Source: Pseudomonadales bacterium
Lineage (GTDB): Bacteria; Pseudomonadota; Gammaproteobacteria; Pseudomonadales; JAHRWD01
Length of the DNA: 64,000 nucleotides
Assembly: GCA_029210125.1 (NCBI GenBank)
Contig: JARGPR010000003.1
Coordinates: 186,001-250,000 of the forward strand
Direction of reading: 5' to 3'
The notes under the pieces were generated by a model. The model saw nothing but the letters and a program-made list of their open reading frames with translations. It searched no databases and was not told the DNA's origin. Within the stretch, counting starts at the first letter, position 1. Every line of letters starts with the position of its first letter. Both the position numbers and the translations under genes were made by a program. Shown piece by piece: positions 33,184 to 48,676 of the stretch.

Positions 33184-34068
33184 CTACTGGATGTGAGCGA
33201 GGATGCCATCCAATTCATCCAACGTATTGTAACTAATCACCATCTTGCCCTTTCCGCGAGCGTTACATTGCAGCAATACACTTGCACCAAGTTGATAGGA
33301 TAATTTTTCCTGTAGCGCGTCGATATCGGGATTGTTTTCAATATTTGAAGCTATTGTGTCTTTGTTTTCGGCTGCGGCTATCATTTTACGAACCAACGCT
33401 TCTGACTGCCTTACGGACAGTCCCTTATCTACAATCTGGTTGGCAACGTCAATCTGTTGGTGTTCTGAGAGGCTGATGAGTGATCGGGCGTGACCCATTT
33501 CGAGGTCGCCATGCTCAAGCATAGTTTTTACACGATCAGCGAGGGTTATCAAACGCAATAAATTGGTTACCGTGGTGCGGGATTTCCCAACGGCTTGCGC
33601 TACTTCCTGGTGGGTTAGTTCAAACTCTGCCTGTAACCGGCTCAACGCGACCGCCTCTTCCATCGGGTTTAGATCTTCCCGCTGGATATTTTCGATCAAT
33701 GCCATCGCTACCGCTGACTGGTCTGATATTTCTCGCAACAGCACCGGTATGGTTTCCAAGCCTGCAAGCTGACAGGCGCGCCATCTTCGCTCACCGGCTA
33801 TGATTTCATATCGATCTTTGCCAATCGCTCGCACCACAATCGGTTGCATTAACCCCTGGGATTTTATCGATTCAGCAAGTTCCTCTAGTGCCTCGCTATT
33901 CATATCTTTGCGGGGTTGGTATTTTCCACGTTGCATAAACTCAACAGGAAGATGACGTAATTCACCATCATTTTCGTCTTTACGATCCTCTAGCTCCGCA
34001 GGGCTTGGTGTACTTAAAAGAGCATCTAATCCGCGACCTAAACTTGGTTTTTTGATTTTTTTACTCAT
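33184..34068 (-). CDS. parB: Chromosome partition protein ParB (CTPase, parS binder)
   Basis: Loads at parS near the origin and spreads as a sliding clamp. The N-terminus KPSLGRGLDALLS is the ParA-contacting peptide. The CTP-binding motif GERRWRAC (residues 90-100) and ENIQREDLNP come next, then a helix-turn-helix (THQEVAQAVGKSRTTVTNLL) and the C-terminal dimer domain. 294 residues. It overlaps parA by four bases. Two matching parS sites are in recF, about 11 kb away. Confidence 0.97.
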   Translation of the reverse strand: MSKKIKKPSLGRGLDALLSTPSPAELEDRKDENDGELRHLPVEFMQRGKYQPRKDMNSEALEELAESIKSQGLMQPIVVRAIGKDRYEIIAGERRWRACQLAGLETIPVLLREISDQSAVAMALIENIQREDLNPMEEAVALSRLQAEFELTHQEVAQAVGKSRTTVTNLLRLITLADRVKTMLEHGDLEMGHARSLISLSEHQQIDVANQIVDKGLSVRQSEALVRKMIAAAENKDTIASNIENNPDIDALQEKLSYQLGASVLLQCNARGKGKMVISYNTLDELDGILAHIQ

Positions 34069-34859
34069 TGGGTTCCTGTTTTAGGTGAGCGGGTATTTTG
34101 ATTTTTTCTCATCAGCTCAGCAGCGAGGGTCAAGTATGCCAAAGCACCGCGGGATTTTTTATCGTAGTGAATAATCGGTAAACCATGGCTCGGTGCTTCG
34201 GCCAATCTAATGTTTCTTGGAATAACGGTGTTATATACCTGTCCAGGAAAGTGCAGATTTAACTGAGCCGAAACTTCTTTGGTCAAACTGTTTCTTGGGT
34301 CGTACATGGTGCGCAGGATACCCTCGATCTGCAGAGCTGGATTGAGGTTTTTCTTAATTCCCTCAATGGTTCCGAGCAATGCCGATAAACCTTCAAGGGC
34401 GTAATATTCACACTGCATTGGGATAAGTACAGTATTCGCAGCTGCTAACGCATTAATCGTCAACATATTTAGTGACGGTGCACAATCGATAATAATGTAA
34501 TCGTATATAGACTTTTCAGTTTCAAGCGCCTTTTTTAGCCGGATTTCACTCTGCTTTTCTCCGACCAGACCTACTTCTGCTTCGGTCAGTGCGCTATTTG
34601 ATGGCAGTAGATCATACCCCGCTTCAGAGCAATTTTTGATGACCGTACTGTAGGATGCTCGACCCAACAATAGCTCACAAACCGAATCGGTTAAGCTATT
34701 TTTATCGATTCCACTCCCCATAGTGGCATTTCCCTGGGGGTCGAGGTCTATCAGCAAAATCCGTTGTCCAAGGGATGCTAATGCTGCGGATAAGTTCACG
34801 CTTGTGGTGGTTTTGCCGACACCGCCCTTCTGGTTTGTTATCGCGATCACTTTAGTCAA
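34065..34859 (-). CDS. parA: Chromosome partition ATPase ParA (Soj)
   Basis: Deviant Walker ATPase that binds DNA non-specifically and moves ParB-parS complexes. KGGVGKTTTSVNLSAALA (residues 10-27) is the deviant Walker A; LLIDLDPQGNATMG and IIIDCAPSLNMLT are the following motifs. The protein has no N-terminal HTH, so it is the chromosomal type Ia-like short form. 264 residues. Start lies 1 bp after the rsmG stop. Confidence 0.97.
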   Translation of the reverse strand: MTKVIAITNQKGGVGKTTTSVNLSAALASLGQRILLIDLDPQGNATMGSGIDKNSLTDSVCELLLGRASYSTVIKNCSEAGYDLLPSNSALTEAEVGLVGEKQSEIRLKKALETEKSIYDYIIIDCAPSLNMLTINALAAANTVLIPMQCEYYALEGLSALLGTIEGIKKNLNPALQIEGILRTMYDPRNSLTKEVSAQLNLHFPGQVYNTVIPRNIRLAEAPSHGLPIIHYDKKSRGALAYLTLAAELMRKNQNTRSPKTGTQ

Positions 34860-35558: not shown

Positions 35559-37448
35559 TCAATCTATTGATTGTTTTCTTATCAGAGATTTTTTCTTGAG
35601 ATGTATCAGCAATAACGAAACCGCAGCCGGGGTGATACCGGGTATTCTGGCGGCCTGACCCAATGTGGTAGGTCTTACTTCAGTCAGTTTCTGTTTCACC
35701 TCGTTGGACAAGCCACTCAGATGACTGTAATCCATATCGATAGGCAACATAACACGTTCATTGGATTTTAGCCGCTCTACCTCTAGCAGCTGACGATCGA
35801 TATAACCTTTGTATTTTATTTGAACCTCTACTTGTTCCGCTACCTGCTGGTTCGCTGCAGGTAAGTCAATCAGATCCATCAATTGCTGATAACTCAGCTC
35901 GGGCCTGCGTAGCAGTTCAGTCAGATTGTATTCTCGACTTAATTCCTTGCCCGCGACTTCCTGTATTTTTTCTGCCTGCTCGCTATTAGCTTGAACCCAG
36001 GTTTTATCGAGTCGCTTAAATTCCTCGGTAATTCCCTCCTGTTTTTCGCAGAATTTTCGCCACCGATTATCGTCTATCAGCCCCATATTGCGAGCTTGTT
36101 CGGTTAGCCGTATATCTGCGTTATCTTCTCGCAATAGCAACCGATATTCCGCTCGGCTGGTGAACATGCGGTAGGGTTCAAATGCGCCATTTGTTGTAAT
36201 GTCATCAACCAGTACCCCAATGTAGGCCTCATCCCGAGCGGGACTCCAGGCGCCTTTACCCTGTACCTGAAGCCCTGCATTGATACCCGCCAGCAAACCC
36301 TGGGCAGCTGCTTCTTCGTAACCGGTTGTGCCATTAATCTGACCAGCGAAATACAACCCTTGCAGATCCTTGGTTTCCAGACTGAACTTTAAACCTCTAG
36401 GGTCAAAATAATCATATTCAATTGCATAACCAGGGCGGGTGATATGAGCTTTTTCCATCCCTCTTATCGATTGAACCAGTTGAAGCTGAACGTCATAGGG
36501 CAAACTTGTAGAAATACCGTTTGGATAAATTTCGCAGGTGGTTAATCCCTCCGGTTCGATAAAAATCTGATGGGAGTTTTTGTCGGCGAAGCGGGTTATT
36601 TTATCCTCTATTGATGGGCAGTAGCGCGGCCCGGTACCCTCAATTACACCGGTATACATGGGGGATCTATCAAGGCCATCACGAATAATTTCGTGGGTTT
36701 TTTCGTTGGTATGGGTTATGTAGCAGTTCACCTGCTCGGGATGTTGATCAATGCTACCGAGGTAAGACATAACGGGTAGTGGTTGATCTCCCGGTTGCGG
36801 CTCCATTACAGAAAAATCGATTGTACGGCCATCAACCCGGGGTGGTGTACCGGTTTTTAGGCGACCTACGTTTAGTGATAACTCCCTGAGGCGAACCGAT
36901 AAATTATTCGAAGCGGGGTCGCCCATTCGGCCGCCGGAGTAGTTCTTTAATCCAACATGGATAACACCACCAAGAAATGTCCCGGTGGTAAGTACTACCG
37001 CTTCCGCCATGAACTTTAATCCAGTATTGGTAACGACACCGGTAACACGACCATTTTCTACGATAAGATCGTCAGCTGACTGCTGAAAATACGAAAGGTT
37101 TGGCTGGTTTTCTACCTGATAACGAATAGCTGCTCGATACAGAGCCCGATCTGCCTGTGCTCGAGTTGCGCGCACTGCAGGCCCCTTTCTGGCGTTAAGT
37201 ACTCTGAATTGAATGCCAGCAAGATCCGTAGCAGTAGCCATCGCACCACCCATCGCATCAATTTCTTTGACCAGATGACTTTTACCTATTCCACCAATAG
37301 CTGGGTTACAGGACATTTGACCGACAGTCTCAATATTCTGTGTAAGTAGCAAGGTAGGAATGTTCATCCTAGCCGATGCTAAAGCAGCCTCTGTACCAGC
37401 ATGACCGCCGCCGATAACGATCACTTTGTATTGGGTGTTTGTAGTCAT
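35559..37448 (-). CDS. mnmG: tRNA uridine 5-carboxymethylaminomethyl modification enzyme, FAD subunit
   Basis: With MnmE makes the cmnm5/mnm5 group at U34 of several tRNAs. N-terminal FAD site [18 protein letters not shown], then [30 protein letters not shown] and the C-terminal tRNA-binding helical domain (YKGYIDRQ). 629 residues. The start faces the AT-rich 340-bp stretch with DnaA boxes, as gidA faces oriC in E. coli. Confidence 0.98.
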
Positions 37449-37788
37449 AAAAAGGTTCGTTAATTGATATTTGTGAACAAAAGTTAGTTATTAGATAAGT
37501 ATTAATAATAAAAATAGATGAATTATATAAAGATTATGTTGTTTATTATTAGTGACCTATTTTTTTGTGTATAAGCTTTTTTTAGTTAAAAGAAACAAAA
37601 GGTTACTCTACTATTTAGGTTGTGGTTAATTATCATTTTTACTGAGCATAGGGTTGCATGAAATGTGAGTAAATCACCTATTTATGGTTGAACAGTAAAT
37701 TATCCACATTCTGTACTTTTAGGTTCAGGTTTTTTGAACCAGTTATACCGCTTTTATTAAGGGTCTGTATAAGTACGATCGGCGGGTG
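37449..37788. other. Candidate replication origin between mnmG and mnmE
   Basis: 340 bp without a gene. It has a very AT-rich core (about 37490-37590) and five DnaA-box-like 9-mers. One is a perfect TTATCCACA at 37700-37708 (plus). On minus are TTATACACA (37574-37566), TTAACCACA (37629-37621), TTACTCACA (37672-37664) and TTGTTCACA (37480-37472), the last three with one change from TTATNCACA. E. coli oriC also lies next to mnmG. Few GATC sites are present, so SeqA/Dam-style control is not apparent. The stretch must also hold the mnmG promoter. The rival site is rpmH-dnaA. Confidence 0.5.
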
Positions 37789-42064: not shown

Positions 42065-42084
42065 TTATCCACAGGTTACTCACA
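42065..42084. promoter_or_regulatory. DnaA boxes in the rpmH-dnaA gap
   Basis: The 391-bp gap 41922-42312 holds a perfect DnaA box TTATCCACA (42065-42073) and, two bases later, TTACTCACA (42076-42084), the same variant seen in the mnmG-mnmE gap. In Pseudomonas oriC lies in this gap, but there it carries more boxes. Here the pair may serve dnaA autoregulation or a second origin element. The rest of the gap holds the rpmH promoter and the unassigned dnaA promoter; TTGTTA at 42197-42202 is a possible -35. Confidence 0.65.
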
Positions 42085-43799: not shown

Positions 43800-44909
43800 A
43801 TGGAATGCACGATATCTAAAGAAGCTCTTCTTCAGCCACTGCAGTTGGTGACGGGTGTTGTAGAGCGAAGACAGACCCTGCCAATTTTGTCCAATGCTTT
43901 GTTGGTGGTTTCAGAGGACAAGCTATCGATTACCGGTACGGATCTAGAGGTCGAATTGGTGGCCTGGGGCACTCCGCAATCGGTTGTTAGTACTGGTGCT
44001 GTCACAACCCCAGCTAGAAAATTGATGGATATATGCAGATCGCTTCCAGATGACGCCATTATTTTGCTTAAACTCGAAGATAATCGCCTGTTGGTTAAAT
44101 CAGGGCGTAGTCGATATCGACTGTCCTTATTGCCGGTTGATGATTTTCCGAAAACAGAACAAAAGGCGTCTGATATCGAGTTTCCGTTGCCGCAATCGGT
44201 ATTAAGAAATCTTATTGAGTCTATAAGTTTTGCAATGGCTCAACAGGATGTACGTTTTTACTTGAATGGTCTGTTGATGGAGGTAGGCGAAGGGAAAATC
44301 CGCACGGTTGCTACCGATGGCCATCGACTTGCACTTTGCAATTCGAAGCTGAGCTCAGCGAATGCGTCGGGCCCCGTCACTCAAATTATCATACCCAGGA
44401 AGGGCGCGGTCGAATTATCTAGGTTACTTGGCGATAGTGATGCTGTAGCTACGGTAACGGTGGGCAGTAATTTTGTCAGAGTCGGCACAGATGACTTTTT
44501 GTTTTCCTCTAAACTGGTTGATGGTAAGTTCCCGGACTACCAGAATGTAATTCCAACCGGTGGCGACAAAGAACTTGTTGCTGACAGACGATTATTAAAG
44601 GATTCATTCGTTCGGGCATCGATACTTTCCAGTGATAAATTTCATGGTGTTCGGCTTTACTTGAGCGAGCAGTTGCTTAAGTTGAAAGCTAACAATCCTG
44701 AGCAGGAAGAAGCAGAGGAAGATATTGAGGTCGATTATAAGGGCAGTCCAGTAGAGATAGGTTTCAATGTAACCTACATGATCGATGTGATGAATACTCT
44801 GGCGAGTGAGCAGGTTCGTATTACGTTGTCTGGTCCAGATAATGGCGTGATTATAGAGCGCTTGGATAATCCAGATGCCCTATACGTCGTGATGCCAATG
44901 AAAATATAA
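43800..44909 (+). CDS. dnaN: DNA polymerase III beta sliding clamp
   Basis: Ring-shaped processivity clamp, homodimer of three-domain subunits. MECTISKEALLQPLQLVTGVVERRQTLPILSN and the C-terminal peptide-binding end VVMPMKI (MPMRL-like) are as expected. 369 residues against 366 in E. coli. AGGA stands 7 bases before the ATG. Probably transcribed with dnaA, 35 bp upstream. Confidence 0.98.
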   Translation: MECTISKEALLQPLQLVTGVVERRQTLPILSNALLVVSEDKLSITGTDLEVELVAWGTPQSVVSTGAVTTPARKLMDICRSLPDDAIILLKLEDNRLLVKSGRSRYRLSLLPVDDFPKTEQKASDIEFPLPQSVLRNLIESISFAMAQQDVRFYLNGLLMEVGEGKIRTVATDGHRLALCNSKLSSANASGPVTQIIIPRKGAVELSRLLGDSDAVATVTVGSNFVRVGTDDFLFSSKLVDGKFPDYQNVIPTGGDKELVADRRLLKDSFVRASILSSDKFHGVRLYLSEQLLKLKANNPEQEEAEEDIEVDYKGSPVEIGFNVTYMIDVMNTLASEQVRITLSGPDNGVIIERLDNPDALYVVMPMKI

Positions 44910-44942: not shown

Positions 44943-45069
44943 ATCGCTGCGTTATCCTTAAACTGTTTGTGAATATTTTGGTGCTTTATCCTCTTTTTAA
45001 AGGTTGGTGCCAGAGGATTTTTAGTGGGTACTTAGTCACTACTTCACCGAGGTTGTGTGTAGGGTTAGT

Positions 45070-46173
45070 GTGAGAATTTCTAAGGTAACTATTTCAGGGG
45101 TTCGGAATATTGGTTCTTCCGAGCTTATGCCTTGTCCTGGCTTAAATGTTATCACCGGAGATAACGGTAGTGGCAAAACTAGCTTTTTGGAAGCGCTTTT
45201 TATTTTGGGTTCGGCTCGATCATTTAGAACTAGTAGTCTGAAATCTGTGGTGTCTACTGGTGAGCAGAATGCTTGGGTTTTTGGGGAAATTGAAGGTGGT
45301 TTTTGTAGTGCCTCGCAAACTCAGGGGGTTGAGGTTAGTAGCCGGGGTAAAGTAAGGGCTCGCCAAAATAGTGTGTCTGTAGCGAACTCTTCCGTTCTGG
45401 CGTATACGCTACCTATCCAGTTAATAAACTCCGATACTTTTCTTCTTTTAGATGGAAGCCCCAAATTCAGGCGGCAATACATGGACTGGGCATTGTTTCA
45501 CGTGGAACAAAATTATAGCGAATATTGGAGAAGGTTTAATAGAGGTTTGAAGCAGAGAAATCGCCTCCTACGATATGGTAAACTAGCGAGTTTGAAGCAG
45601 GAGTTGCAGCCTTGGGATGAGGAATTATCGGTCTGTGCGATGAAAATTGATCGGTTGAGAAAGACTCATTTGGTGGAACTCACGCCGCTGATAGAAACAA
45701 AATTTGAACAAATGTGCCCTATTCCCGGGCTTGGTGTTTCATATAAGCCGGGGTGGGACGATTCAATCGAATATAAAGAAAGCCTTGCTCTGAGTTTAGA
45801 GCGAGACAGAGCAGTCGGCTATACGAAGGACGGTCCCCATAGGTCGGACCTTGTTATAACGCTGGATGGTTTGCCTGCTGTCGATCGATTGTCTCGAGGC
45901 CAGAGCAAGATGCTGGTTTGTGCGTTAAAGCTGGTTCAGGGAGATATGCTATCTGCAAGTCGTGGATATAAGACCATCTATTTAATAGATGACCTACCCT
46001 CTGAGCTTGATGCAGAAAATAGGAGGATATTCCTCTCTCAGTTGAAGCTATCACAGGGTCAGGTATTTATAACTGCAGTCGATGATGACTTTATAGTTGA
46101 GGCTTATACAGAAGAGCGGGAAAAAATTGCTGTGTTTCACGTGGAACATGGGGTGTTTTCCAGATTAGTTTAG
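45070..46173 (+). CDS. recF: DNA repair and recombination protein RecF
   Basis: SMC-like ATPase that loads RecA at gaps with RecO and RecR. Walker A GDNGSGKTSFLEAL (about residues 30-43), the signature-like region near LSRGQSKMLVCALKL, and Walker B IYLIDDLPSELD are all present. I choose the GTG at 45070 (367 residues, VRISKVTI) because AGGG lies 5 bases upstream; an in-frame GTG at 45055 would add five residues. Two parS sites are embedded in the reading frame, each coding for Phe-His-Val-Glu. Confidence 0.96.
   Translation: MRISKVTISGVRNIGSSELMPCPGLNVITGDNGSGKTSFLEALFILGSARSFRTSSLKSVVSTGEQNAWVFGEIEGGFCSASQTQGVEVSSRGKVRARQNSVSVANSSVLAYTLPIQLINSDTFLLLDGSPKFRRQYMDWALFHVEQNYSEYWRRFNRGLKQRNRLLRYGKLASLKQELQPWDEELSVCAMKIDRLRKTHLVELTPLIETKFEQMCPIPGLGVSYKPGWDDSIEYKESLALSLERDRAVGYTKDGPHRSDLVITLDGLPAVDRLSRGQSKMLVCALKLVQGDMLSASRGYKTIYLIDDLPSELDAENRRIFLSQLKLSQGQVFITAVDDDFIVEAYTEEREKIAVFHVEHGVFSRLV
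45494..45509. other. parS site 1 (ParB binding)
   Basis: TGTTTCACGTGGAACA, a 16-bp near-palindrome; the other strand reads TGTTCCACGTGAAACA, which is the classical parS sequence known from Bacillus subtilis. It lies inside recF in the codons for LFHVEQ. Confidence 0.9.
46133..46148. other. parS site 2 (ParB binding)
   Basis: The same 16-mer as site 1, in the same orientation, 639 bp downstream near the end of recF, in the codons for VFHVEH. An identical second copy makes chance very unlikely and supports use by the ParB encoded at 33.2-34.1 kb. Confidence 0.9.

Positions 46174-46234: not shown

Positions 46235-48676
<2,442 letters not shown>

Follow-up and report, generated by a model that had tools for sequence, protein, structure and literature searches.

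In a Pseudomonadales genome, the 64,000-nucleotide stretch of DNA analysed here (the window) carries the same 16-bp palindrome, TGTTTCACGTGGAACA, at two places within recF. This raises the question of whether these bases are kept as part of a protein motif or as a DNA signal, and which of the two codes constrains the other. A sequence-only reading had described two identical 16-mers lying 639 bp apart in the same frame of recF, both coding for Phe-His-Val-Glu, with no further copy in 64 kb. Each of these points was borne out: both copies are exact and lie on the forward strand (Table 1), they are separated by 213 codons, and each is read in the recF frame as TG-TTT-CAC-GTG-GAA-CA. The open frame of recF begins at a GTG (45055), while the true start may be the GTG at 45070. 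The general chromosomal parS consensus of ParB/Spo0J systems is TGTTNCACGTGNAACA, and both recF copies match this 16-bp palindrome exactly.

Table 1. Coordinates of the two recF sites, their host gene and the neighbouring and partition genes in the window.
Feature	Coordinates	Strand	Basis and remarks
parS site 1	45494..45509	+	Exact TGTTTCACGTGGAACA; Phe-His-Val-Glu codons of RecF
parS site 2	46133..46148	+	Exact TGTTTCACGTGGAACA; Phe-His-Val-Glu codons near the RecF C-terminus
recF	45055..46173	+	TIGR00611, 315 bits, over cut-off; host gene of both sites
dnaN	43800..44909	+	TIGR00663; upstream neighbour of recF
gyrB	46247..48676	+	NF011501 and TIGR01059; downstream neighbour of recF
parB	33184..34068	-	TIGR00180 over cut-off; predicted binder of both sites
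parA	34065..34859	-	Best NCBIfam match ParA_partition, E 7.3e-31, below equivalog cut-off; Walker ATPase

The pair is unique both in the window and in the genome. When up to three mismatches were allowed, the 64 kb contained matches only at these two places, on both strands at each (four matches); dinucleotide shuffles of the window gave a mean of 0.62 matches at this threshold and reached four in 1 of 100 shuffles. The genome-wide count proposed in the sequence-only reading gave exactly two occurrences of TGTTTCACGTGGAACA in the assembly (3,130,246 bases in 31 contigs; 3.13 Mb, 99.84% complete), both in the recF gene of the window. A search of the whole assembly with the relaxed pattern TGTTYCACGTGRAACA and up to two mismatches added one place, a 2-mismatch match on contig C2. 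The reversed control of TGTTYCACGTGRAACA gave two matches per strand on that contig, so the extra place is at chance level.

The same window encodes the proteins that a parS site would serve. In its ParB, the Arg of a GKSR motif and the Gly of a GHAR motif align with R173 and G201 of Caulobacter ParB (alignment to 6t1f), residues reported to separate parS binders from Noc (PMC7383237), and the two lie 28 residues apart in both proteins. The genome thus holds a ParB with parS-type recognition residues. A Noc identity for this gene was rejected: the model with the top E-value, TIGR04285 (Noc), reached only 222 bits against a cut-off of 315, whereas TIGR00180 was over its cut-off, and the protein has the ParB-type Arg and Gly where Noc has Gln and Arg. 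The partner gene parA adjoins parB in the order rsmG-parA-parB and overlaps it by 4 bases, its family match staying below the equivalog level. The parAB pair lies 11 kb from the parS sites.

The gene order of the window is parB-parA-rsmG-mnmG / mnmE-yidC / dnaA-dnaN-recF-gyrB. The gap between mnmG and mnmE (37449-37788) is the probable oriC, with six DnaA boxes at one mismatch or fewer, two of them exact, and a GC content that falls to 28%; the cumulative GC-skew minimum of the window is at 36431. The alternative predicted origin is the region upstream of dnaA, which has an exact DnaA box at 42065 and a near box at 42076. The parS pair would lie about 8 kb from the first predicted origin and about 3 kb from the second, and it is 3,181 bp from the start of dnaA.

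To see how far the pair extends beyond this genome, 213 recF genes were compared: 123 from the class (one per family, our own included), 89 from other members of the order and, as a control, that of E. coli K-12. The nearest named loci suggest that this class is Gammaproteobacteria as GTDB defines it. For the class, 151 genomes were searched, 128 had a RecF match and 123 were used, with G482 (contig edge), G453 and G475 (broken frames) and G506 and G497 (weak or partial) left out. For the order, 390 genomes were searched and 380 had a match; apart from the window's own genome, 89 of these were taken, namely the 29 with the best scores plus 60 hand-picked from the listed places for family spread, so that the sample leans towards window-like RecF. 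A further 80 named loci were among the matches listed for two RecF peptide patterns, neither of which includes FHVE. Scoring used the codons that align with the two sites of the window, and up to two mismatches there counted as an in-register parS. Relatedness was handled by taking one genome per family, the counts being made without a tree.

An in-register parS was found in 180 of the 213 genes at site 1 and likewise in 180 of 213 at site 2. In the class set (n=123) both sites were present in 98 genes, site 1 only in 10, site 2 only in 8 and neither in 7; the corresponding numbers for the order sample (n=89) were 71, 1, 3 and 14. Among the matches listed for the 80 named loci, 47 had both sites, 18 site 2 only, 2 site 1 only and 13 neither. 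Mismatch counts in 292 genes (the 213 without E. coli, plus the 80 named loci) were bimodal, with 0-2 on one side, mostly 5 or more on the other and few at 3-4. The two sites were 600-669 bp apart, and in 169 of 169 genes this distance was a multiple of 3. At one mismatch or fewer, 206 sites fell in 149 kb of recF frames versus 7 in 386 kb of flanks (132 loci). The alignments, which covered named Pseudomonas other than P. aeruginosa, place the two sites of the window at homologous recF codons in one frame. Outside the class, none of the 32 recF genes examined, out of 59 phylum genomes with a match, had a site at two mismatches or fewer. Many genomes carry additional parS sites, some of them outside recF, and in L006, L022 and L340 an extra parS (one mismatch or fewer) lies 9-14 nt past the recF frame.

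The closest comparison is with G072, a genome of the same genus and the only other one of the family compared, which has exactly two sites at one mismatch or fewer, both in recF. Identity between the window and G072 is 63% for the RecF protein and 62% for recF over aligned codons. No identical run shared by the two genes is longer than the one at site 1, and at site 2 they differ by a Glu/Lys switch.

Such conservation could in principle reflect the protein alone, RecF requiring the peptide FHVE at each site and the palindrome arising as its by-product, and some residues do behave as this explanation predicts. Where parS is missing at site 1, Phe stays in 31 of 33 genes and His in 24 of 33, and Phe stays in 24 of 33 at site 2. 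The codons, however, are not those of a motif held for its peptide. When RecF reads FHVE or FHVK, the parS codons CAC-GTG-(GAA/AAA) are used in 172 of 174 genes at site 1 and in 173 of 176 at site 2 of the 213-gene set, whereas the smoothed codon use of the individual genes predicts 13.5 and 14.4. Among the matches listed, the named loci gave 49 of 51 (5.8 expected) and 50 of 57 (6.5 expected). Genes with GC3 below 35% keep the parS codons as well (23/24 at site 1 and 19/20 at site 2), and the fourth residue alternates between Glu and Lys (GAA/AAA), which is a base change that the parS consensus tolerates. The rest of the peptide, moreover, does not outlast the DNA site: without parS, site 1 has Val in 0 of 33 genes and Glu or Lys in 6 of 33, while site 2 has His in 4, Val in 11 and Glu or Lys in 10 of 33, and E. 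coli RecF reads FHNE and FTVE at the two places. The codon test refutes a purely protein-level motif as the full account, and we regard a need of RecF for FHVE at both places as very improbable.

Nothing beyond the shared peptide speaks for chance or codon-biased repetition without function. The base composition of the window predicts 0.003 exact parS per genome of this size, and yet two stand in one gene, with the aligned codons kept across families; we reject a chance origin of the 16-mers on these expected counts, the shuffles and the genome-wide uniqueness, and give the explanation a negligible probability. It has also to be considered that the palindromes serve mainly another DNA-binding protein, or ParB-mediated regulation of dnaA-dnaN-recF-gyrB, rather than a centromere. 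Excess ParB was reported to lower expression around parS1-4 in P. aeruginosa, and its authors proposed interference via the recF sites parS1 and parS2 (PMC5521831). In the same report, however, the genes whose expression rose when ParB or parS was lost were confined to the neighbourhood of the intergenic parS3 and parS4 and did not include those at the recF sites (PMC5521831), and any one of parS1-4 was described as necessary and sufficient for segregation (PMC4368675). A mainly regulatory or ParB-unrelated role is thus most unlikely, and we retain the reading of the two 16-mers as parS.

The same data bear on the direction of the constraint. The sequence-only reading had held that peptide and site constrain each other; this stands for Phe and for the His of site 1, and otherwise it is mainly the DNA that dictates the peptide. 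RecF appears to have no need of FHVE, because Val (site 1) and His (site 2) are so rarely found once parS is lost, and the residues that persist without parS are therefore the only ones that look wanted by the protein. The pattern points to a constraint that is mainly one-way, in which most of the motif is imposed by the DNA site and the protein helps to keep Phe and the His of site 1. Both the codon test and the comparison with G072 indicate that the DNA is kept beyond the needs of the protein.

Synonymous drift in relatives, the outcome that the sequence-only reading had named as speaking against its claim, was rare and clustered. The 213-gene set had five exceptions. Nine came from the listed matches that make up the 80 named loci, two among the 51 genes with the motif at site 1 and seven among the 57 with it at site 2. 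The two at site 1 are Photobacterium iliopiscarium and Pseudomonas chlororaphis EA105, and six of the seven at site 2 are Vibrionaceae. All six FHVE-bearing Vibrionaceae (L287, L301, L305, L313, L316 and L317) share a synonymous CAT at site 2, a lineage-wide altered site with the sequence TGTTTCATGTGGAAC, and of these only L287 has a parS at site 1.

Sites have also been lost or have moved. Neither site was present in 12 of the 13 sampled f62 genomes, in G154 or in G237, yet ParB scored over the cut-off in every one of them; 13 of these 14 genomes have a parS on the contig that carries recF, at a distance of about 3-32 kb, and in G320 parS is on another contig than recF. Of the class families with neither in-register site, 6 of 7 have a ParB hit. 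Two fragmented drafts keep recF sites: G519 has an exact one and no ParB hit, and G426 has both with a weak ParB hit. G435 and G437 have ParB hits (6.3e-55 and 1.9e-35), yet no parS at one mismatch or fewer was found genome-wide, and their parS may have changed. In L149 (G518), a draft without a ParB hit whose recF has no in-register sites, the 1-mismatch parS GGTTCCACGTGGAACA stands in a different frame, 23 nt away from where site 1 would be, and is possibly a re-gained site.

Two groups were chosen by name, in part because of lost sites: 13 genomes expected to lack a chromosomal ParB, and 12 for comparison. The first group consists of ten Enterobacterales, Gilliamella, Zophobihabitans and Pasteurella, with the Orbaceae-like L300 and L307 among them, and none of its genomes has a high-scoring ParB. 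Six gave no ParB hit and seven gave hits of 5.8e-39 or weaker. Four of these hits were over the TIGR00180 cut-off (L293, L296, L304 and L307; best E 5.8e-39), and we take them, judging from the score alone, as plasmid- or phage-type. The comparison genomes had ParB at E 7e-54 or better in 11 cases and 7.4e-23 in the draft L301. None of the 13 genomes expected to lack a chromosomal ParB had an exact recF site: all 13 showed 6-9 mismatches at site 1, and at site 2 there were still just 1-2 mismatches in 7 of them, reading FRVE or FNVE. Near-parS sequences stand at site 2 in L291, L295, L302 and L304 (TGTTCCGCGTGGAACA), which have no high-scoring chromosomal ParB, and in E. coli L219 (TGTTTACCGTGGAAAA), whose ParB was seen only as a control. 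Such near-parS sequences at site 2 look like fossil parS, remnants that are fading. Enterobacteriaceae and Pasteurellaceae were reported to have no par genes (PMC3909081). Lineages without a chromosomal ParB, or with parS elsewhere, seem mostly to have lost the FHVE peptide too.

A recF-borne pair is already known from P. aeruginosa, where the parS sites closest to oriC were reported to lie in recF (PMC3909081), with parS1 and parS2 within the gene (PMC5521831). As in the window, there are two parS in recF near oriC and parAB; P. aeruginosa differs in having ten listed parS, whereas the genome of the window has only the two recF sites, both TGTTTCACGTGGAACA. G314, of the same order as the window, carries TGTTCCACGTGGAACC followed by TGTTCCACGTGGAACA at the aligned places, which are the published parS1 and parS2 sequences. 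In nearly every case tested, altering a P. aeruginosa site lowered ParB binding 2- to 10-fold (PMC4368675). By our own reading of Table 1 in that paper, the parS2 mutation TTt-CAt-GTa-GAg is synonymous for FHVE, so in effect this P. aeruginosa work had already uncoupled the centromere role from the peptide. In Xanthomonas citri, too, parS was reported within a gene of this operon and at a distance of about 3 kb from the origin, but the gene is dnaN, with the site at its 3' end (PMC3937727); the Xanthomonas locus L329 combines 1-mismatch sites at both recF places with another on the dnaN side. The Caulobacter recF-gyrB stretch was described as a hot spot that tolerates new parS insertions, although the parS there was engineered and the native cluster lies elsewhere on the left arm (PMC5815017).

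Taken together, these results give us high confidence that the two 16-mers are parS sites of the host chromosome, because they are exact palindromes and the sole exact pair in the assembly, because the window encodes parAB with a parS-type ParB, and because the DNA is under selection in recF across the class. The centromere-like character claimed in the sequence-only reading is thereby supported; of the dual function it proposed, the coding role of the same bases is directly visible, and the centromere role is inferred from the sequence comparisons. Both recF sites are almost certainly the predicted ParB loading sites of the chromosome. By analogy with studied ParABS systems, ParB dimers would load at both sites as CTP clamps and slide into the adjacent DNA to form a partition complex, ParA would move the two copies apart so that the origin region segregates, and the presence of two sites would provide redundancy. 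The DNA site would impose Val-(Glu/Lys) and the codons CAC-GTG-(GAA/AAA) on RecF, whose own demand would be mainly for Phe, plus His at site 1, and the pair would be an old feature of the class.

We consider it likely, though less firmly than the parS assignment itself, that the recF pair is the ancestral centromere of the (GTDB) Gammaproteobacteria, that Val-Glu/Lys stands in RecF there solely due to the centromere and decays as a fossil when chromosomal ParB is lost or parS moves, and that these two coding sites are the whole known centromere of the window's genus. The pair itself is not unusual, since it has been published for P. aeruginosa and is frequent in the class; here it is widespread among the relatives sampled. 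What is added is the class-wide pattern and the one-way constraint, which we do not claim as unpublished; a search of the open literature found no paper on recF parS across the class.

The recF pair offers a clean case of overlapping codes, in which a chromosome-scale DNA signal lies in a core gene and can be read as a protein motif. It is also a caution that the conserved FHVE of RecF is not to be taken for a functional protein motif. FHVE or FHVK in RecF may instead serve as a simple marker of parS and, indirectly, of a chromosomal ParABS system. The Vibrionaceae, the Enterobacterales and family f62 provide natural experiments on centromeres weakening, moving and dying, and a genome with two parS, both of them coding, would be a minimal setting for studying what a bacterial centromere requires.
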